A stretch of 64,000 nucleotides of DNA from Tunturibacter gelidoferens (GTDB lineage: Bacteria; Acidobacteriota; Terriglobia; Terriglobales; Acidobacteriaceae). Position 1 is the first letter of the stretch; every line of letters starts with the position of its first letter. Location: NCBI RefSeq assembly GCF_040358255.1, contig NZ_CP132938.1, positions 124,001 to 188,000 on the forward strand, given 5' to 3'. The notes under the pieces were generated by a model that was not told where the DNA came from, ran no database searches, and was given only the letters and a program-made list of their open reading frames with translations. A program made the translations under genes and the position numbers. Shown in pieces: positions 20,744 to 31,341 of this stretch.

Positions 20744-22177
20744 TTGCTATCCAATGCAGGTGCACAAGAGTCCACCGACGGGCTGAAGTTGCTATTTGCC
20801 ACCAGCGATAACGACGCTCTGCCCGAGATCGGCCAGGAGCTCGCGCCCGCCTTCTTCATCCGTCTTGCCGCAGACTCCGAAACTCTCTTCCAGAGTCTCG
20901 CCGAACACAAACCCGAGATCCTCGTCATCGACCTGGACACTATCGTCTCGCCCGGCACCGACGTCTTCTGCTACATCGAATCCATCCGCGCCGCCGCGCC
21001 ACACATCTATCTGACCGTCATCTCCCGGACGCATCTCAAAAACGCCCGCATTCGCACAAAGAAATCCGGAGCCGACGAGTTCCTCTTAGCCCCCATCGGC
21101 TTCCCCGAACTCCGCGATCATCTCCTCGAAGCCGGCCAGCAACACCGCAGGCACCTCGAAGCCGTGCACCTCCGCGGCGAGCTAGCCCGGCGTAACTCCC
21201 TCTGCGACATGATTGGCGGCAGCGAGCCGATGCAGCGCCTCTACGAAACCCTCCGCCGGGTCGCCTCTAGCCACAGCACCGTTCTCCTCCGCGGAGAAAG
21301 CGGCACCGGCAAAGAACTCGCCGCACGTGCCATCGTCGACCTCGGCCCGCGCCGCGGCCAGCCCTTCATCAGCGTCAACTGCGCTGCCCTCCCCGAAACC
21401 CTTATGGAGTCCGAGCTCTTCGGCCACGAAAAAGGTGCATTCACCGGAGCCCACGCCACCCAACTCGGACAAATTGAACTCGCCGACAGCGGCACCCTCT
21501 TCCTCGACGAGATCGGCTCGCTCCCTCTCCTCCTCCAAAGCAAGCTGCTCCGCGTCCTCCAGGAAAAAACCGTTCAGCGTATCGGCGCCAAGAGTCCGCG
21601 CAAGATCGACTTCCGCCTCATCGCCGCCACCAACGACAACCTTGAGCAGATGGTTCGGCAGGGCCAGTTCCGCGAAGACCTCTTCTACCGCATCTGCGTC
21701 ATCCCCGTAGCGCTCCCTCCACTCCGCGACCGCGAAGGCGACATTCCCCTCCTGCTCGACCACTACCTCACCAAGTACTGCACCGCCGGCAATCTGCGGC
21801 ACAAACGCTTCTCCCCCGAAGCGCTCCAGGTGCTCGAAACCGGCGCATGGCCCGGCAATGTACGCGAACTCGAAAACCTCGTTCAGCGCCTCGCCCTCAT
21901 GGTCGACGGCGACACCATCTCCATGCAGCATCTCCCCGAAAAGGTCCTCTACGAGAGCACCGCCAGCTACGACGAGATCCTTGTCCCCCCCGAAGGCCTC
22001 GACCTCGAAGATGAGCTCACACGTATCGAGGTCGCCTATCTACTCGCCGCCCTGCGCCGCGCCGGCGGCAAGACGGCCGCTGCCGCCCTCCTCCACATCC
22101 CAGTCGAAAAGATGAAGTATCTCTGCCGCAAACACCGTATCCACGAAGACCAGATCAAACTCAACGGCAAAAGGTAG
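20744..22177 (+). CDS. Sigma-54-dependent activator with degenerate receiver domain
   Basis: A protein of 477 residues starting at TTG, with GGAG 5 bp upstream. Residues 12-130 form a receiver-like domain: Asp63 in ILVIDLD is the likely acceptor position, but the conserved Lys of strand 5 is missing (EFLLAPI instead of the usual K-P). Residues 155-390 are an AAA+ domain with Walker A GESGTGKE (184-191), the sigma-54-contact motif GAFTGA (231-236) and Walker B LFLDE (252-256). A Fis-type helix-turn-helix follows near the C-terminus (GKTAAAALLHIPVEKMKYLC). No histidine kinase is adjacent. It sits directly upstream of palindromes and a consensus sigma-54 promoter driving the repeat protein at 22393, its obvious target. 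Confidence 0.92.
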   Translation: MLSNAGAQESTDGLKLLFATSDNDALPEIGQELAPAFFIRLAADSETLFQSLAEHKPEILVIDLDTIVSPGTDVFCYIESIRAAAPHIYLTVISRTHLKNARIRTKKSGADEFLLAPIGFPELRDHLLEAGQQHRRHLEAVHLRGELARRNSLCDMIGGSEPMQRLYETLRRVASSHSTVLLRGESGTGKELAARAIVDLGPRRGQPFISVNCAALPETLMESELFGHEKGAFTGAHATQLGQIELADSGTLFLDEIGSLPLLLQSKLLRVLQEKTVQRIGAKSPRKIDFRLIAATNDNLEQMVRQGQFREDLFYRICVIPVALPPLRDREGDIPLLLDHYLTKYCTAGNLRHKRFSPEALQVLETGAWPGNVRELENLVQRLALMVDGDTISMQHLPEKVLYESTASYDEILVPPEGLDLEDELTRIEVAYLLAALRRAGGKTAAAALLHIPVEKMKYLCRKHRIHEDQIKLNGKR

Positions 22178-22181
22178 TCCG

Positions 22182-22217
22182 GGGTTAAAAATTAACCCGG
22201 CGAGGTGAAAATTTACC
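22182..22217 (+). promoter_or_regulatory. Tandem palindromes, likely activator binding sites (UAS)
   Basis: GGGTTAA-AAA-TTAACCC at 22182-22198 and the related GGTGAAAATTTACC at 22204-22217. Their centres are about 20.5 bp apart, two helical turns, so both face the same side. They lie 90-120 bp upstream of the -24 box, the usual distance for sigma-54 enhancer sites. Confidence 0.6.
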
Positions 22218-22269
22218 CCCCCACGGAGACCCTCCATCGTACGCATCCACCTGCCCCATGCCGAAAATC

Positions 22270-22303: not shown

Positions 22304-22319
22304 TGGCACGCTGCTTGCA
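22304..22319 (+). promoter_or_regulatory. Sigma-54 promoter
   Basis: TTGGCACGCTGCTTGCA matches the -24/-12 consensus (TGGCACG, four bases, TTGCA) exactly. Transcription should begin near 22331, leaving a leader of about 60 bases before the repeat-protein ATG at 22393. Confidence 0.85.
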
Positions 22320-22392
22320 ATAAGACATAGCACAGTCCCAGCAAAGAGAACCTCAAGCTGATCTGAAGACATTTCAAGGAGAAGAAACTATC

Positions 22393-22605
22393 ATGGCTAT
22401 CCAAAAGAAATCCCTCACCAGCAACCTGAGCCCCGAGAAGAAGTCCGCCTCCACCACGAAGTCTTCACCCAAGTCAGCCGCCGCAGCTGCTCCTGTTGCG
22501 CTGTCGAAAACCGTCGCCAGCCGAGCCGTCCTCTCCAAGACCATCGCCAGCCGCGCGGTCCTCTCGAAGAAGATCGCCAGCCGAGCCATGAACCCCTCGC
22601 TCTAA
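22393..22605 (+). CDS. Small repeat protein under sigma-54 control, candidate exported peptide precursor
   Basis: A protein of 70 residues. The basic, Ser/Lys-rich N-terminal part (about 1-35) ends in an Ala run. Three tandem 10-residue units follow: LSKTVASRAV, LSKTIASRAV and LSKKIASRAM, then NPSL. At DNA level the 30-base units differ mostly at third codon positions, so the repeat is kept at protein level. AAGGAG lies 11 bp before the ATG. It has no Cys, no signal peptide and no membrane helix. It is preceded by a consensus sigma-54 promoter and the activator gene, and faces a PqqD/M50/HlyD operon. A precursor with leader and repeated core is a reasonable reading (inference). A DNA- or RNA-binding Lys/Ala-rich protein is the alternative. 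Confidence 0.75.
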   Translation: MAIQKKSLTSNLSPEKKSASTTKSSPKSAAAAAPVALSKTVASRAVLSKTIASRAVLSKKIASRAMNPSL

Positions 22606-22712: not shown

Positions 22713-22743
22713 GGGTGGAGGCTTCTGCCTCCGCCCGTCTTTT
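22713..22743 (+). terminator. Rho-independent terminator of the repeat-protein transcript
   Basis: A 10-bp stem GGGTGGAGGC / GCCTCCGCCC (one G-T pair) with a TTCT loop, followed by a T-rich run. It lies between the convergent repeat-protein gene and the M50 operon and terminates plus-strand transcription. Confidence 0.8.
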
Positions 22744-22751
22744 CTTTCTCC

Positions 22752-24902
22752 CTACCAAAGCTTCCGCTGCACAAACTCCCGCACCTCGCGAGCCGCTACC
22801 CCCGCCAGGCTGCGCCGCCGCACTGCGATCTTCGCAGTCCCCGTCATCCCATCGCGCAGCGTGCCATCGTTCGCGATCATCGCATCGACGACAAAGTACG
22901 TCAGCGTCCCCGCCCCTCGAATCTTCTCATCCGTATCCAGTGCCGCATCCAGTGCCTCCGGCGCTCTCTCCAGGCTCTGCACCCGCGATCGCAGCACACC
23001 GAACCGTCCATCTTCTAGTAGATCCACACGCGCTCCCTCCCGCACTCGCGGCAGGGCATACTCCAGCACAAAGATCCGCGCCCGCATCTGCTCCGTATCG
23101 CCGATCTCCGCCACCATCGCCCCTGCATCCAGGTAACTTCCCGCCAGGTTCTTCAAGCCTGCATTCATCACCACACCGGAGATCGGTGCCCGCGGCCGCA
23201 GCTGCTGCTCCACTTCTTCCGCAATCGTCCGCTCCACGTCCGCGCGCGCATGCTCCGGAATCGCCTCGCTCTCATCGCCATGCTCCAGCTGCGCCTCCAC
23301 GCGCTTCATCCCCGTCAAGGCAAACTCGCTTCCCGCACCCGCACGCATCGAGCGCACCTCGCGGCTCTCCATCTCGATCAGCGGCGTGCCCGCCGTCACC
23401 CTCTCGCCCTCACGGGTCATCACCGACACCACCCTGCCGGGAACCGTAGTCCGCACCACCGCCCGCTCGCCCGGCTCCAGCACAAATCGCGCCGTCACCG
23501 TCTCGTGCCACACTGGAGCAAACACAATCACCAGTGCAACCCCCGACGCCAACGCCACCCGCGCTCCCGTCCACCACGCCCGCACCCTATCCTTCTTGTC
23601 CAGGTACACCGTCCGCGCAAATTGCAGCAGCGTTCGAAGACGCCCGCGGAAGATCACCAGCGCAAAGACTCCAGCAGGCAGAAAACCCCACTGCGGACTG
23701 TAGCTCACGGCCACGTTGTAGCTGAAACGGACCACCGTCAATAGCAGTCCATAGCTGTAGATTCCCGACAGCAGCGCATACGCCACGTACCCCGGCCGCC
23801 GCCGCTGCACCACATACTCCATCTCCACCGGCAGCCGAAAGATTGCGCCCCGCACCAGCCCCGACAGATACGCCGTCGACTTCTCCTTGATATCCGAAAA
23901 CCCGATGATCTCCGAGAACGCATAGTATCCATCCAGCTTGATCAGCGGATTCATATTCACCACTACCACCGCCGCTCCCGTCAGCAGCATGATTTTGTAA
24001 GCAAAGTTGTGAGCTCCGCTTCCCGGCGGCGTCCCCCACCACACTATCGTCGCCATCGCGCAGAAGATCATTTCGACCCATATCCCCGCGATGATCGTCA
24101 CTAGCCTCTGCCACCGCGTCGCATACACCCACGCCTCGCTCACATCCACAAAGAACGCAGGCGTCAGATAAACCAGGTGAAACCCCATCCCATGCACCTC
24201 CGCGCCATAGTGCTTGCACGTCAGCCCATGCGCCGACTCGTGAAAGAACCCAAGGAACAGAAAAATCAGCCAGAACTGGGCCAGCTCCGACGCGCTCTTG
24301 TGCGTGAACGTATAGAACTGCACCGTGTCCAGGCGGATCTGCTGCCAGTTCGCCGCCGAAAGCAACAGCATGCACGCAAACAACGCCACCGTCAGCGTCG
24401 TAAACCATCCGCTGTACACCCACCGGGTGTACGGATAGATCCGATTGAAATACTGATCCGGATCCCACGCCGAAAACTGCATATGCGCAATGTCGCCCCA
24501 CTTCGACTTTCTGTGCGTGTGCTGGTGACGTCCGCTCTCTAGCTTTTCACGCAGCGCCACACTCCTCTCAAGCGGCGTTCGATACCAGAACTCCGCATCA
24601 TCCAGCCCTGCCGCAAACTCCCGCAGATCGTCCGCCCCGTACGCCACACCGTAGCGCTCCGCATGCAACGCCTCAATCTCTTCATACGTCCGCACGCCAT
24701 CGAACAGCTCGATGATCCGCCACTGCACCGGGTTGAAGCGAAACATCTTGTCCGTGCTCCGGTTCAACACCACCATCACCGGCTCTCCGTCCTCCACGTT
24801 CTCCTTCACCACCGCCGCCGGATCCATCTTAGGAAAACCCGTGCGTACCCGCCGCGCCGGCAGATCCGGCAACGCCGCATTAAGCGCCTCGGCCAGGTTC
24901 AT
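22752..24902 (-). CDS. PqqD domain - M50 peptidase - HlyD fusion, peptide-processing membrane protein
   Basis: A protein of 716 residues. Residues about 40-110 resemble PqqD (FRFNPVQWRIIELFDGVRTY), the peptide chaperone domain of RiPP systems. Several membrane helices follow with the site-2-protease motif HESAH (221-225) and the distal Asp in NMNPLIKLDGYYA (Asp324). The part from about 470 on is a periplasmic HlyD-like lipoyl/beta-barrel region (VVRTTVPGRVVSVMTREGER). Related proteins are called putative peptide zinc metalloproteases (YydH-like). Its ATG overlaps the stop of the HlyD lipoprotein gene by 4 bp. Likely role: bind, cut and pass a peptide across the inner membrane. The best local substrate is the repeat protein at 22393. 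Confidence 0.88.
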   Translation of the reverse strand: MNLAEALNAALPDLPARRVRTGFPKMDPAAVVKENVEDGEPVMVVLNRSTDKMFRFNPVQWRIIELFDGVRTYEEIEALHAERYGVAYGADDLREFAAGLDDAEFWYRTPLERSVALREKLESGRHQHTHRKSKWGDIAHMQFSAWDPDQYFNRIYPYTRWVYSGWFTTLTVALFACMLLLSAANWQQIRLDTVQFYTFTHKSASELAQFWLIFLFLGFFHESAHGLTCKHYGAEVHGMGFHLVYLTPAFFVDVSEAWVYATRWQRLVTIIAGIWVEMIFCAMATIVWWGTPPGSGAHNFAYKIMLLTGAAVVVVNMNPLIKLDGYYAFSEIIGFSDIKEKSTAYLSGLVRGAIFRLPVEMEYVVQRRRPGYVAYALLSGIYSYGLLLTVVRFSYNVAVSYSPQWGFLPAGVFALVIFRGRLRTLLQFARTVYLDKKDRVRAWWTGARVALASGVALVIVFAPVWHETVTARFVLEPGERAVVRTTVPGRVVSVMTREGERVTAGTPLIEMESREVRSMRAGAGSEFALTGMKRVEAQLEHGDESEAIPEHARADVERTIAEEVEQQLRPRAPISGVVMNAGLKNLAGSYLDAGAMVAEIGDTEQMRARIFVLEYALPRVREGARVDLLEDGRFGVLRSRVQSLERAPEALDAALDTDEKIRGAGTLTYFVVDAMIANDGTLRDGMTGTAKIAVRRRSLAGVAAREVREFVQRKLW

Positions 24903-25794: not shown

Positions 25795-28155
25795 TTACCA
25801 GGCGAACCAGTTCCACAGCGTAGACCAAACCCACAAAGCGGGATCGTGAAATAGCACATACCCCAGCGGCCGTAAACCCACTCGAACCTTCCCCGTGCCC
25901 TGCATTCCTGGCCGCAGCCGTCCATCTGCATTCGGCAGCTCCACCCGCGCAAAGAACAGGTGCTTATCTCCCACCGTCGTCCCCGAAGGACTCACAACAT
26001 CCACCCGTCCGCGAAACGTCGCCGTCGGAAACGACTCCAGCTTCACCACTGCCTCCGCTCCCGGCCTCACCAGTGCAACATCCCGCTCCAACACCGCCAC
26101 ATCCACCACCACACTCGCCGTGCTCACTAACTCCACCACCGGATCCCCGTTCGAAAGCTTCTTCCCTACCAGGTCCTCCACATGCGGAGTCGCCACCACA
26201 CCCGCAATCTCCGACCGCAAGGTCGTCCGCTCCAGTCTGTCGTTCAGCCGCGTCACCTCGCCCCGCGCATACTCCACCTCTACCTCGTGCTGCCCCGCCG
26301 CCGTTGCATCATTGTCCGTCAGCGAACGATTCCTCTGCGCCATCGCCGTCTCGTACTTCGCCTGCGCACCCGCCAGCGTCGCCCTCTGCCCCCAGTCCGC
26401 CATCTGGAACAGCGGAGTCCCCGGCTCCACGCGATCGCCCTCGTGCACAAACGCACGCTGTACCACGCTGTCCTCCTCCGCATGCACATACTGCATCTGC
26501 GATGGATTCACCTCTGCCTGCCCCGAGACCCGCATTGGTAGCGGAACCAGCACCATCGCCAACGCCACCATCGCAACCGAACCCAACAGGAGCCCCCGTC
26601 TCCGTCGCTCAATCGCCATGAACCGCCGCCGCTTCTCAATCAACGGCTCCAATATCCCGATGAACGGAACCTCCTTGTATAGCGAGGCGTTTCTCAGCGC
26701 CAGCGTCGCCTGGCTCGACAAAATCTTGATGATCTCCAGGTGAAGCGCTCCCAGAAACTCCGCATCCGAGCTCTCGAACGATAGAATCCCCAGCCGCCCC
26801 TCATCATCCGTCAGCGGCAGCGCATAAAAGCTCCGCATACCCGAGGTCTCAAAGTACCGCCGGAACTTCTCCCGCGTCTCCGGCCTCGCGTCGCTGATCG
26901 CCTCCCCACGCTGCGTGACATACACCTCCGTTCCCAAGCCCGCCACCCAGCTCAACACCCCATTCAGCTCCTGCACCTCCGCCGTCGACGCATTCAGCTT
27001 CGTCACCCCCGAGATTGCCTGCACCGCGATCCGGCCCCTGTTCTCCAGCGCAATCGCCGCCCGCTCATACGGAATCACCAGCTGCGGCTGATTCACAATC
27101 GCCTCGAGCACACGCTGGAGATTCAGCGTCGACGTAATCTCCTGCCCCACCCCCACCAGCGTCCGCAGCACCTCGATCTTCCGCTCCGCCTGCAGCAGCG
27201 AAGAGTTATGCAGCGCCTGCGCAGCCGACCCCGCCACCTGCGTCAGCGTGAACAGATGATCCTCTGTGAACCGCCGTTGCGCGCCGAACCGCACCACTTC
27301 CAGCACTCCCGTCAGCGCCTCTGCATGCAGCAGCGGAGCTGCTATCACCGACCGCTCGTCCTCCTGCACCAGCGCCTCTTCGCCCGTCTCTCCCACTCCA
27401 CCCACGACCCCTTCGCCATCTGCTCGACGCTCCCCCAACGCCGTCCCTTCCTCCCCCACCTGCTCCGTCAATAGCAGATCACTCTGATCCACCAACCACA
27501 GATTCACCGCATCCGCCCCCATCAGATCTTGCACCTTCGAGCAGATGATCGGAAGCAGCTCCCGCATCTCCAGCGTAGAGTTGAACACCCGCTCAATGTC
27601 GTAGAGCTGCGTCAGCCGCAGCACCGAAGCCAGCCCTGCGCCCCGCTCCGCCTCATACCGCTGCGCCGCGTCCAGCGCGACCGCCGCATGCTCCGCCATC
27701 TCCGCCGCTTCGTCCAGCGCCTCTTCCGTCGCGGCCTCGCCAAAGCTCACAATCTCTATGCAACCCAGCAGCCGATCGTTCAACAGAATTGGCACATAGC
27801 TCAGCGCACTGAAACTCCGCCGCAGATCTAGGTGCGCAAACTCCTCCCGCGCCAGATCCCCCGCGGCAAACTGCATCACCGCGTGCTCCTCCAACACCGC
27901 GCCCAGGCTGCCCGCCGCATCATACGCTATCGCACCACGGCTGATCGTCAGTCCACCCACAGTCGCCTTCACCTGCCACGCCTGCGCCGCTTCATCCGCC
28001 ATGTAAACCACCACTGCCGAATCCGCAAACAGCGCCTCCACCTCGGTCGCCAGCACGCGTGCCCGGGCCGCGCTCTCCAACTGCTTCAGCAACAAGCCAC
28101 AGAGACGAACAAGACGCGATGCCGTCACCCGATCACTCACCCCAGGAATCTCCAT
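25795..28155 (-). CDS. GAF-domain protein fused to HlyD-type adaptor
   Basis: A protein of 786 residues. The cytoplasmic N-terminal two thirds hold up to three GAF-like domains (for example AVVVYMADEAAQAWQVKATV, then RVFNSTLEMRELLPIICSKV, then EITSTLNLQRVLEAIVNQPQ). A single transmembrane helix follows (GLLLGSVAMVALAMVLVPLP, near residue 530). The periplasmic HlyD part has lipoyl halves (VVQRAFVHEGDRVEPGTPLF; RSEIAGVVATPHVEDL) and a beta-barrel. It thus couples small-molecule sensing inside to an adaptor outside. The start at 28155 is chosen because a sigma-70 promoter ends just upstream; a GTG at 28275 would lie upstream of that promoter. First gene of the operon. Confidence 0.85.
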   Translation of the reverse strand: MEIPGVSDRVTASRLVRLCGLLLKQLESAARARVLATEVEALFADSAVVVYMADEAAQAWQVKATVGGLTISRGAIAYDAAGSLGAVLEEHAVMQFAAGDLAREEFAHLDLRRSFSALSYVPILLNDRLLGCIEIVSFGEAATEEALDEAAEMAEHAAVALDAAQRYEAERGAGLASVLRLTQLYDIERVFNSTLEMRELLPIICSKVQDLMGADAVNLWLVDQSDLLLTEQVGEEGTALGERRADGEGVVGGVGETGEEALVQEDERSVIAAPLLHAEALTGVLEVVRFGAQRRFTEDHLFTLTQVAGSAAQALHNSSLLQAERKIEVLRTLVGVGQEITSTLNLQRVLEAIVNQPQLVIPYERAAIALENRGRIAVQAISGVTKLNASTAEVQELNGVLSWVAGLGTEVYVTQRGEAISDARPETREKFRRYFETSGMRSFYALPLTDDEGRLGILSFESSDAEFLGALHLEIIKILSSQATLALRNASLYKEVPFIGILEPLIEKRRRFMAIERRRRGLLLGSVAMVALAMVLVPLPMRVSGQAEVNPSQMQYVHAEEDSVVQRAFVHEGDRVEPGTPLFQMADWGQRATLAGAQAKYETAMAQRNRSLTDNDATAAGQHEVEVEYARGEVTRLNDRLERTTLRSEIAGVVATPHVEDLVGKKLSNGDPVVELVSTASVVVDVAVLERDVALVRPGAEAVVKLESFPTATFRGRVDVVSPSGTTVGDKHLFFARVELPNADGRLRPGMQGTGKVRVGLRPLGYVLFHDPALWVWSTLWNWFAW

Positions 28156-28182
28156 CCGCCATCCATTTGATCGATGGCTAGA

Positions 28183-28211
28183 ATAGTATCCTGCCTCACT
28201 CTTCCCGTGAA
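28183..28211 (-). promoter_or_regulatory. Sigma-70 promoter of the GAF-HlyD/M50 operon
   Basis: On the minus strand TTCACG (28206-28211) and TACTAT (28183-28188) with a 17-bp spacer. The predicted start near 28176 leaves a short leader to the ATG at 28155. Confidence 0.6.
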
Positions 28212-28984
28212 GCTTTCCTTCGTCGCTGACACCGCACGAACTCATATCCGGCACATCCATCGGAAGCTTATTCACTTTGCGCCCAGCGTCAGGCCGCCTT
28301 CACGTATCCGCTTAGAGTCATGCATGGCAGTCCCGGAAACGTCCCACAATAGTCTCTTTGCCGAGGTACTTACAAAGCACTGGCGTATAAATGAACCGGC
28401 GCTTCGAACTCTTCTCGGTGTAAGCCGGGCAACTTGGCGCGTGGGACCGCTCTATTGGCTCTCACAAGCTGAATCGATGAGAGCGGCGGAACTCTTTCAG
28501 CAGTCGACATTACTCTTTGCTTTGGGCCGTTCCTTAAAGAGCGAACATTTTTCGATTTCGGTTCCCAAGATGTCGCGACTGACGGCGGGAGTCTTGTAGT
28601 TGTGGACGGCGGATACGTATGGTGCCTGACGCGCAACCTCCGAGGCTTTCACCCTGATGTTGCTGATCCGGACTTCGCAGCCCGTAGATCGCACACAGCG
28701 ACATGATCGCAGCAGCTCGTAGATCAGCGGGCTTGCTGAGTGGGAAGGTAGTGACTTCCGATGGGTCAGACCTATACACCGACCCACGCGTCGAAGTTCC
28801 GGACGTACCGTCCCGGTTCTTTACCAACCCATAGCTCTACTAAGCGCGTTTTAGGAAGTTTGGGTAGACCACGAATCAAGGCAGGTGTGGTGCCTTGCGA
28901 TTGTGTTTCGTCTGCAACTCGGAAGGGTGGGTCTCATCGACTAGTAAATTGAAGCAAAATCGCCGAGTCATGGAGATGGATTAG
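28212..28984. other. Gene-poor stretch with decayed fragments
   Basis: Contains a DUF2924 fragment on the minus strand (28772-28912). A plus-strand frame at 28324-28599 lacks recognisable features. The following frame, around 28570-28640, reads GGSLVVVDGGYVWCL, which could be the tail of a short-chain dehydrogenase, but no such gene precedes it. Confidence 0.4.
28772..28912 (-). pseudogene. DUF2924 N-terminal fragment
   Basis: On the minus strand DETQSQGTTPALIRGLPKLP then KTRLVELWVGKEPGRYVRN. This is the start of a DUF2924 protein (phage/recombinase-associated), and its DNA is clearly similar to 37100-37226 on the plus strand. The protein then leaves homology and stops at 28772, so only the first third is present. 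Inverted relative to the second copy 8.3 kb away. Confidence 0.7.
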
Positions 28985-30550
28985 TTAACGGGAATTCAGA
29001 TTGTGTTGACCAATCCGATCACTACCGAGATGCACGCATTGATGAAGACTTCGTTCGACAGAGACGTTTCCAGGCTTTCCTTCTGGCGTGGTCTGGATAT
29101 TTAGTCCGGGGACGGCCGAAACGGGCAAAGGAGACAGAGGGAGTTCGAGCCTGACTCGCGTCCCTCTGCCTTCTACACTTTCTATCGACATGGTTCCACC
29201 GTGAGCCTTCGAGATCGCTTTCGCGATCGAGAGTCCCAGACCAGTACCGCCCGACTCTCTGGTCCGTGCCTTGTCTGAACGGTAGAAGCGTTCGAAGACA
29301 TGCGGCAGCGATCGAGCCGGAATGCCTATGCCGGTATCGCTGACCTCCAGAATCGCAAGCTGGGTTGCGCCGATTGCTGATACCGAGACGGCCACCTCGC
29401 CTCCATTTGGTGTGTACTTGATGGCGTTGTCCAACAGATTCACCAGCACCTGCTTGATTCTGCCAGCGTCAGCCATAATTGCCACCGGCTCAACCCGCGA
29501 GCATCGCAGCGCGATATTCTTCTCCTCCGCCATGAGGTGCATCTGGTCGACGGTCCATTGTGCGAGGCAGTTCAGGTCTACTTGCTTCAGGTCCATACCG
29601 TCAGTGCCGGAATCCAGTCGGGAGATGGTCAGCAGGCTTTCCACTATCTGTGCCATGCGGTCGATCTCTTCGAGTGCACTGCCCAGGGAATCACGCTGCG
29701 TCATCGGCATTCTGGAGGTGTGGAGCAACTGTTCCAACTCGCCGCGAAGTATCGTGAGCGGCGTACGCAGCTCATGAGACACATCTGCAGAGAAGCGCCG
29801 ATTGTAGGCAAGCGCGTCTTCAAGGCGACTAATCATACGGTTCAGCGAGAGCGACAGCCTCTCCATCTCGTCGCCGGTCGCTATGACGGGCAGGCGCTCG
29901 CCAAATTGATGAGTGCCGATCCGTTCTGCTTGCTCGCTCAAGATTTCCAGGGGCCGCAGCGGCAATTTCATCAAGAAGTGTCCACCGAGTGCCGCTGCAA
30001 AAAGAATGCACGGCGTTATAAGGAACAGAATCTTCAACAGGCTTGCCAGCACACGTGAGATCGGGGCAAGGGAAGCGCCCATTTCAACGACGTATCTGGT
30101 TCCCGAGGGCGATACATATGGCTGTGAATAGATCAGCAGATTGTGCGTTCCGCCGGCACTTTCGTGTCGAAAAAAATCCTTCGACTCACTCAATTGAGGT
30201 TGCGAAACAATCGAGGAATCGATATGAGGATCTCGCGTGTCGCCGCCCTGGTACAGCACGGTGCCATCCTGCCGGCTAACGCGAATAAACCGTCCGCTGT
30301 TCTCCGGGGCATATGCCTCAGCGATTTCACCCTGCATCCATGATTGTCCCTTGCTCTCCTCCTGCGAGAGAAAAGTGAGGACGATCCCCTTTGCTTCACC
30401 AATCAGCGATTCCTCCAACGAGCTTCGCAGATAGCCCTGCACGCCAAAGTAGAGAGCCGCGCCGAAGACAAGCAACGCAGCCGCCATCAGGCCGACATAC
30501 CATGTTGTGACCCGTGTCCGCAGTGTCGTCAAATGGATGGCCGGAATCAA
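28985..30550 (-). CDS. Sensor histidine kinase (HAMP, HisKA, HATPase)
   Basis: A protein of 521 residues. TM1 is near residues 15-35 and TM2 near 172-192, with a periplasmic sensor domain of about 135 residues between. A HAMP segment leads to the H box SADVSHELRTPLTILRGELE, the N box NLLDNAIKYTPNGG, and the G boxes DTGIGIP and GGTGLGLSIAKAI. A C-terminal tail of about 50 residues beyond the ATPase domain is unusual. The start is a TTG overlapping the regulator stop codon, so the two are translationally coupled. The architecture is that of CusS/heavy-metal-type kinases, but the signal is not known. It phosphorylates the adjacent OmpR-type regulator. Confidence 0.92.
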   Translation of the reverse strand: MIPAIHLTTLRTRVTTWYVGLMAAALLVFGAALYFGVQGYLRSSLEESLIGEAKGIVLTFLSQEESKGQSWMQGEIAEAYAPENSGRFIRVSRQDGTVLYQGGDTRDPHIDSSIVSQPQLSESKDFFRHESAGGTHNLLIYSQPYVSPSGTRYVVEMGASLAPISRVLASLLKILFLITPCILFAAALGGHFLMKLPLRPLEILSEQAERIGTHQFGERLPVIATGDEMERLSLSLNRMISRLEDALAYNRRFSADVSHELRTPLTILRGELEQLLHTSRMPMTQRDSLGSALEEIDRMAQIVESLLTISRLDSGTDGMDLKQVDLNCLAQWTVDQMHLMAEEKNIALRCSRVEPVAIMADAGRIKQVLVNLLDNAIKYTPNGGEVAVSVSAIGATQLAILEVSDTGIGIPARSLPHVFERFYRSDKARTRESGGTGLGLSIAKAISKAHGGTMSIESVEGRGTRVRLELPLSPLPVSAVPGLNIQTTPEGKPGNVSVERSLHQCVHLGSDRIGQHNLNSR

Positions 30551-31227
30551 GCCTCACCACCTGCACGAATCATGTATCCGGCTCCGCGCACTGTGCGAAT
30601 CAGCTTACTCTCCTGTCCGTCGTCTACCTTCGAACGCAGATGCCGCACATACACGTCGACGATGTTTGTCACTCCGTCGAAGCTCTGGTCCCACACATGC
30701 TCGATGATCATATTGCGTGAGAGCACCCGCTCTGCATTCTGCATCAGGTACTCCAGCAGGGAGTACTCCTTCGCTGTCAGTTCGATGCGTCTGCCACCGC
30801 GCTTAATCTGTTGGGTCAGGCGATCCAGCTCCAGGTCTCCCACCATCAGCGTGCTCGATCGATTTACCGGTCCGCGCCTCAACAAGGCTTTCGCCCGAAC
30901 CAGCAGCTCAGCAAATGCAAAGGGCTTGGTCAGGTAATCGTCCGCACCGCTCTCGAAGAGGCGTACCTTGTCTTCTATGGAGTCCCGCGCCGTCAGCACT
31001 AGAACGGGGACGCATGCATCCTTATGGCGAAGCCGCTGCAGCACTTCGCGGCCATCCAGCCGGGGCAGCATTAGATCCAGGATAATCAGGTCGTAAGGAT
31101 AGGTCTGTGCCATCTCCAGACCGTCGCGGCCATCCGCCGAGACATCCACTGCGTACCGCTCGGCGGCGAGTCCACGCTCTACGAAGCCCGAGACCTTAGG
31201 CTCATCTTCCACAAGCAATATCCGCAT
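30547..31227 (-). CDS. OmpR/PhoB-family response regulator
   Basis: A protein of 226 residues from the ATG at 31227, with GAGGTG upstream. The receiver has the acidic pair in LLVEDEP, the phospho-acceptor Asp in YDLIILDLMLPRLDG, Thr/Ser in VLTAR and Lys in LTKPF. The C-terminal winged helix contains RRIELTAKEYSLLEYLMQNA and the wing GAGYMIR. All key residues are intact. It lies upstream of and overlaps the histidine kinase gene. Target genes may include the beta-propeller gene and the TonB receptor next door (inference from position only). Confidence 0.95.
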   Translation of the reverse strand: MRILLVEDEPKVSGFVERGLAAERYAVDVSADGRDGLEMAQTYPYDLIILDLMLPRLDGREVLQRLRHKDACVPVLVLTARDSIEDKVRLFESGADDYLTKPFAFAELLVRAKALLRRGPVNRSSTLMVGDLELDRLTQQIKRGGRRIELTAKEYSLLEYLMQNAERVLSRNMIIEHVWDQSFDGVTNIVDVYVRHLRSKVDDGQESKLIRTVRGAGYMIRAGGEA

Positions 31228-31341
31228 TGCGTACACCTCGCACTATTACAGTCTTGAGCAGTAAAGCAGAGATGAAGCATAGATGAAAACCCCCTCACTT
31301 GCGATTGACTGCTACAACGGGAGTGTCGTGGCGAGAAGTTG

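Follow-up and report, generated by a model that had tools for sequence, protein, structure and literature searches.

Why does the 64-kb window (the whole stretch of Tunturibacter gelidoferens DNA analysed here) carry a small gene for a basic peptide whose core is three near copies of one ten-residue unit, and what could such a peptide be for? We think it probable that the gene belongs to a dedicated, stimulus-induced peptide-export module, in which the leader of a leader-repeat precursor would be bound and probably removed, and the core exported. The gene is laid out as follows:

22376..22384, + strand: ribosome-binding site, sequence AAGGAGAAG
22393..22605, + strand: leader-repeat precursor peptide, 70 aa, 13 K/R and 1 D/E, transmembrane segment absent
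22393..22500, + strand: leader region (aa 1-36), made up of a conserved MAIQKKSL motif and, after it, a spacer rich in Ala and Ser
22501..22590, + strand: repeat array of three 10-aa units (aa 37-66)
22501-22530, + strand: unit 1, LSKTVASRAV
22531-22560, + strand: unit 2, LSKTIASRAV
22561-22590, + strand: unit 3, LSKKIASRAM
22713..22736, + strand: putative intrinsic terminator between convergent genes (10-bp stem with 8 GC pairs, T tail; a consensus match only)

The precursor thus reads MAIQKKSLTSNLSPEKKSASTTKSSPKSAAAAAPVA LSKTVASRAV LSKTIASRAV LSKKIASRAM NPSL (70 aa). The three LSKxxASRxx units reported by the first-pass annotation are exactly there, as is the open reading frame: the peptide matches itself at a lag of 10 over 24 residues, a value reached by 0 of 20,000 shuffled peptides, and TRF finds the same array as a 30-bp repeat (22510-22587, 83% matches), in agreement with the peptide units. 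The further claim that the units vary mainly at third codon positions stands for units 1 and 2, which differ by 1, 0 and 5 bases at the three positions (five synonymous changes, one non-synonymous), and is less clear for units 1 and 3 (2, 1, 4) and units 2 and 3 (1, 1, 5), unit 3 being the more diverged in this codon comparison. Neither Pfam nor NCBIfam holds a curated family for the window peptide, and the Pentapeptide family does not match it.

Close relatives tell us how the peptide evolves over short distances. Against the sister locus of X5P2 (L018), omega is 0.07 for the leader and 0.13 for the repeats, and against that of G395 (L080) it is 0.07 for both; these estimates rest on small counts, but they agree with each other, and they are similar to the 0.075 obtained for the adjoining activator gene. 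The repeat peptide is, judged from these ratios, under purifying selection, as had been proposed. The same proposal set selection against duplication, and this was a false choice. Units 2 and 3 of G395 are one synonymous base apart, so that units are also gained by duplication of DNA, and L056, with its stretches of almost identical KLAPN codons, is a further case of it. Unit number does vary between relatives, with 3 in the window species, 3 in X5P2 and 4 in G395; the idea that the unit sequence is meanwhile kept fails over longer distances, where it is replaced.

What controls the gene can be read from the DNA immediately upstream:

20744..22177, + strand: sigma-54 activator (bEBP) with a receiver-like N-terminus, an AAA+ sigma-54 interaction domain and a Fis-type C-terminus
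22182..22198, no strand assigned: predicted upstream activator site 1, GGGTTAAAAATTAACCC (EM motif)
22203..22219, no strand assigned: predicted upstream activator site 2, AGGTGAAAATTTACCCC (EM motif), 21 bp after site 1
22304..22319, + strand: sigma-54 -24/-12 promoter TGGCACGCTGCTTGCA, GG and GC spaced by 10

The sigma-54 box is perfect and lies 73 bp upstream of the peptide start codon. TGGCACGCTGCTTGCA is matched nowhere else in the window (expected number 0.13), and the strict form TTGGCAC-N5-TTGCW occurs three times in the whole genome, the peptide promoter being one of these; the remaining two are at G000:C2:1838643-1838659 and G000:C2:2722855-2722871. Homologous loci have the same box about 45-90 nt upstream of the peptide ATG. 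The peptide gene adjoins the activator gene on its 3' side, and an activator orthologue stands beside the peptide in nearly all loci of the window's leader class (class 1, see below) for which there is enough sequence. The activator matches Pfam Sigma54_activat at E 4e-69, its receiver domain reaches just 20.7 bits (cut-off 30.2), and a YLCRK motif in its C-terminus is kept across the aligned orthologues.

Two 17-bp palindromes of the type GGGTTAAAATTTAACCC sit between the activator stop codon and the promoter. The motif was obtained by EM over 30 homologous upstream regions, with a log-likelihood of 267 against 28-30 for three shuffled sets (palindromic symmetry was imposed on the model, for the shuffled sets too), and most of the 30 loci have two sites about 22 bp apart at the listed scores. 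Since a degenerate pattern of the stronger site, site 1, matches only once in the genome (5.58 Mb), the activator probably serves this promoter alone, and we consider it likely to be the dedicated regulator of the peptide gene. With rpoN also encoded in the genome (Sigma54_DBD, 198 bits), everything expected of a sigma-54-controlled gene is found: the -24/-12 box, an activator with distal sites, and the sigma factor itself. The first-pass annotation had missed the promoter, the activator sites and the pairing of the peptide with the activator and with a protease/exporter operon, and it is these that make the locus a system.

That operon faces the peptide gene, its three genes touching or overlapping at their ends and running convergently with it:

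22752..24902, - strand: RRE/PqqD-like - M50 site-2-type protease - HlyD adaptor fusion, 716 aa
24899..25834, - strand: HlyD/RND-type periplasmic adaptor, a probable lipoprotein (MSGC lipobox), 311 aa, RND_mfp
25795..28275, - strand: GAF-GAF-TM-HlyD fusion, cytoplasmic sensor-type domains on a periplasmic adaptor, 826 aa

In the 716-aa fusion, Pfam recognises HlyD (E 7e-12), Peptidase_M50 (E 7e-6, just below the cut-off) and PqqD (E 3e-4, also below the Pfam cut-off). Peptidase_M50 is found at E<=0.01 in 25 of 26 family members, whereas PqqD is found in 4 of the 26, and this match is weak taken alone. The HExxH and NPxxKxDG motifs are present, with H221, E222, H225, N318, P319, D324 and G325 invariant (n=26), as is N316 beside N318-P319-D324. 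A structure model of the fusion shows three strands followed by three helices at residues 31-102 (pLDDT about 80-89), which is the strand-strand-strand-helix-helix-helix unit expected of an RRE, so far as a model can tell, and its C-terminus has a MacA-like adaptor fold (Z 18 in a structure search whose lists were filled by the adaptor domain, so that its matches bear on the adaptor part only). With a mean pLDDT of 79 and a pTM of 0.47, the modelled domains are more reliable than their arrangement. The 311-aa adaptor passes the RND_mfp cut-off (138.9 vs 94.9 bits), and the 826-aa protein has a transmembrane segment at about 561-579.

Two side observations concern these genes. The GAF region of the GAF-HlyD protein (25795-28275) weakly matches Autoind_bind (E 3e-4), and the M50-HlyD frame of X5P2 is split near its 3' end (L018:11689-13835, two tblastn pieces and a 640-aa ORF), which suggests a frameshift or a sequencing error. 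A histidine kinase/OmpR-type pair at 28985-31236 was considered as part of the module and rejected, as it is absent from the shared core.

The closest parallel among known systems is that of the daptides, in which an RRE fused to a site-2 protease (MpaP) is the proposed leader remover (PMC10036551). Daptide precursors, too, are short, have a conserved N-terminal motif and are encoded next to a membrane metalloprotease whose N-terminus resembles an RRE; the NCBIfam model daptide_HExxH aligns to residues 25-417 of our fusion (E 2e-44) and to all 26 members. The window protein is nevertheless not a daptide protease by that model (152.2 bits against a cut-off of 300). Moreover, the module protease is fused to HlyD, its control is by sigma-54, its core is made of tandem repeats, and the module has neither genes for oxidative decarboxylation, transamination or methylation nor the invariant C-terminal Thr. 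The YydF/epipeptide systems resemble it in a related M50 protease (YydH/LiaK, E 8e-10) beside a small peptide gene, but the module has repeats, lacks a radical-SAM epimerase and an ABC transporter, and scores far under the family cut-off (38.7 vs 225 bits). Type I secretion and tripartite adaptors (HlyD, MacA, RND) resemble the C-terminus of the M50 protein and the two further adaptors of the operon; in the module, by contrast, one adaptor is joined to a protease and another to GAF domains, and the pump is absent. The precursor is of the RiPP kind (short, with a conserved leader and a variable core), but we do not file the module as a RiPP system because no modification enzyme was found among the genes shared in 16 loci.

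How the parts might work together can be outlined as follows. The adjacent activator would bind its two palindromic sites and turn on the single sigma-54 promoter, whose output would be a small basic precursor with a conserved leader and a short-repeat core. The PqqD/RRE-like N-terminus of the M50-HlyD fusion would bind the leader M[AS][IV]xKKS[LI]I, the M50 metalloprotease domain would probably cut it off, and the repeat core would exit by way of three HlyD-type adaptors assembled in the envelope, one of which carries GAF sensor domains. Leader recognition, cleavage and export are what we infer, and the proposal is supported by the kinship of the M50 domain, along its length, with the leader protease of daptides. 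Several points count against it. The substrates of site-2 proteases are usually membrane-spanning, and the window peptide has no such segment; the module encodes no ATPase, outer-membrane channel or ABC/RND/MFS pump, so that it shows no source of energy for export; PqqD is below its cut-off and limited to 4 of the 26 members; some homologues lack a significant repeat; and the M50-HlyD frame of X5P2 seems broken. When profiles of the peptide and the protease were compared, they showed no similarity, a result that has no bearing on binding.

Are the export genes perhaps only chance neighbours of the peptide? It could then be an intracellular, histone-H1-like basic peptide binding nucleic acid, and two homologues (L056 and L101) do give weak, low-complexity matches to H1-like families (E 0.002-0.03). 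We consider this very improbable, for the linkage is strict. The GAF-HlyD exporter protein is found in 12 of the 62 genomes of the genus, and a profile of the 28-residue leader matches at E<=1e-4 in 11 of these 12, each time at the exporter locus and nowhere else in the 62; in the twelfth pair (G396), where the exporter match is truncated, a weak leader match (MAIAKKSIV..., E 0.22) lies within the exporter locus. The other 50 genomes of the genus give nothing better than E 0.01 with the leader profile. In addition, the convergent arrangement is constant in many loci, and several homologues have acidic or neutral repeats.

Beyond the genus, the M50-HlyD protein occurs in 35 of 346 genomes of the phylum at E<=1e-40. 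A scan of named genomes, in which the nearest relatives of the window genome are Edaphobacter lichenicola and Granulicella strains, yielded 80 loci, about 56 of them having, where one would be expected, a short basic candidate peptide (selection was on a leader-like sequence together with a ribosome-binding site and a sigma-54-like box, followed by reading by eye). The five-element layout with the peptide recurs at many loci in several Acidobacteriota families, and the module in dozens of Acidobacteriota. When neighbouring genes were clustered over 16 loci, only the activator and the exporter/adaptor genes were common to nearly all, the other sizeable groups being a small gene in 7 loci and an antisense ORF in 4.

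Some further loci deserve mention. The small gene shared by 7 of the 16 loci, 112-197 aa long, flanks the module (L091:14411-14749, L093:14449-14787, L112:6157-6594 and others), and in L095 a small ORF near the activator reads like a STAS-domain anti-anti-sigma factor. M50-HlyD relatives are also present in Planctomycetota, Oligoflexia and Gemmatimonadota (L147, L149, L157, L160 and similar), with neither a related activator nor a recognisable peptide in the fetched stretch. The weak matches L007-L017 were rejected: those inspected lacked the promoter and peptide, and most were low-scoring and in other frames.

Three leader classes can be distinguished among the module loci, in which the activator usually adjoins the peptide. 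Class 1, that of the window, has the leader M[AS][IV]xKKS[LI]I, with M1, K5, K6 and S7 invariant in 29 sequences; since this leader is kept in about 29 homologues and the rest of the peptide is not, the separate basic N-terminal leader suspected earlier is supported. Class 2 consists of short MAKxKxVKKGKKLGxVKPL peptides and of relatives with LQRGT/LQRAS/LQRTA repeats, and class 3 of peptides in which a MxxVRIKLTDxQKAKIKxATG leader is followed by repeats. We observed in passing that in six class-2 loci (L122, L125, L126, L127, L138, L139) the peptides are located between the M50 3' end and the activator, have 24-35 aa and no repeats, and are often encoded by two genes per locus, each with its own sigma-54-like box; and that class 3 (L140, L143, L148, L151, L158), with repeats such as ANPLQIGGTETDR or VAAPR, belongs to more distant Acidobacteriota.

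The repeat unit has 4-13 aa in 2-20 copies and is different in nearly every species (KLAPN, SPLSN, SKLAE, LAKSTN and RLDSAK are examples); no significant repeat is present in the homologues L106, L108, L112 and L113. Mean pairwise identity is 0.56 for the leader, 0.44 for the exporter and 0.21 for the core, the last value overestimating relatedness, since low-complexity sequences align by chance. L090 and L091 are 0.91 identical over their first 22 residues and 66% in the exporter, against 0.09 in the core; within a single genus, L058 and L059 have leaders 0.95 and exporters 62% identical, with units SPLSN vs SKLAE. On these alignments, leaders and exporters evolve slowly and in step, and cores do not.

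Such wide unit differences would be expected if the exact sequence were unimportant, that is, if the peptide were exported to build a surface coat, a biofilm matrix or a beta-solenoid-like fibre, structures in which only the bulk character of the repeat matters. Most repeats are built of 5- or 6-residue units in which a single residue is aliphatic, a periodicity like that of the pentapeptide/hexapeptide beta-helices; L059 matches Pentapeptide_4 at E 7e-6 (26.5 vs 38 bits, the best homologue but under the cut-off) and L137 and L058 do so weakly; and copy number is variable with homogenised units. We find this reading somewhat unlikely. Unit residues are kept between sister species (the omega values above), periods of 4, 7, 8, 9, 10, 12 and 13 also occur, so that no one solenoid geometry suits all, and no curated solenoid family is matched above its cut-off. 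Compared with pentapeptide- and hexapeptide-repeat proteins, the module also differs in its leader and dedicated exporter and in the 10-mer units of the window peptide. Some homologues match models for LpxD, histone H1-like proteins, extensin or DUF963 (S. pombe), and we set these matches aside as low-complexity; that of L103 to DUF963 passes (23.5 bits, cut-off 21), but the model describes a yeast repeat.

The peptide could also string together several identical short pheromones as a polyprotein and be cleaved at each unit's basic residue, in which case copy number would determine the dose and unit sequence would confer the specificity. A single K or R is present in almost all units, the units of a given peptide hardly differ from one another but give way to others from species to species, and the regulator is dedicated. 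The SPLSN repeats of L058 have no basic residue, however, and neither a second protease nor a receptor gene is conserved in the 16 loci, which makes us regard this idea as unlikely. More doubtful still, in our opinion, is a cationic antimicrobial or toxin-like core directed against competitors. The 13 K/R against 1 D/E of the window peptide and the kinship of the protease domain with ribosomal-peptide pathways speak for such a role; the charge varies among repeats (SPLSN, RLDSAK, ANPLQIGGTETDR), a conserved immunity gene is absent from the 16 loci, and no membrane-active segment is obvious in the window peptide.

Coming back to the export module as we propose it, the role of the core outside the cell is its least certain part. 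Our preference is for a species-specific signal or recognition factor, since unit residues hold constant between sister species (with omega near 0.1), whereas whole units are exchanged between genera. This combination of short-term conservation and long-term replacement points to a specific partner differing from species to species, although a repeat free of other constraints could show much the same pattern if it evolved in concert.

We found no description of this module in the open-access literature (subscription journals lay mostly outside the search), and the sigma-54 survey PMC3162934 does not mention it under the terms searched; a prior description elsewhere is possible. The protease relation and the leader-core logic are known already; the repeat cargo, the sigma-54 switch and the protease-adaptor fusion are new to us. 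Tentatively, and with rather less than even confidence, we suggest that these peptides are an undescribed class of secreted peptides of Acidobacteriota: leader-repeat precursors, each switched by a single sigma-54 promoter, released by an RRE-protease-adaptor protein with neither a dedicated pump nor modification enzymes, their unit being rewritten from one species to the next.

Soils are rich in Acidobacteriota, and little is known of peptide communication and secretion in this phylum. With one regulator, one promoter, one precursor and three export genes, the module is compact and open to experimental test. It is also a natural experiment in how a leader and an exporter accommodate entirely different cargo, shows a short repeat in fast concerted evolution, and may be a general device for exporting peptides without an obvious pump. 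If our suggestion is true, the rewriting of the unit while leader, promoter and exporter are kept would fit self/non-self recognition or species-specific communication in these bacteria.
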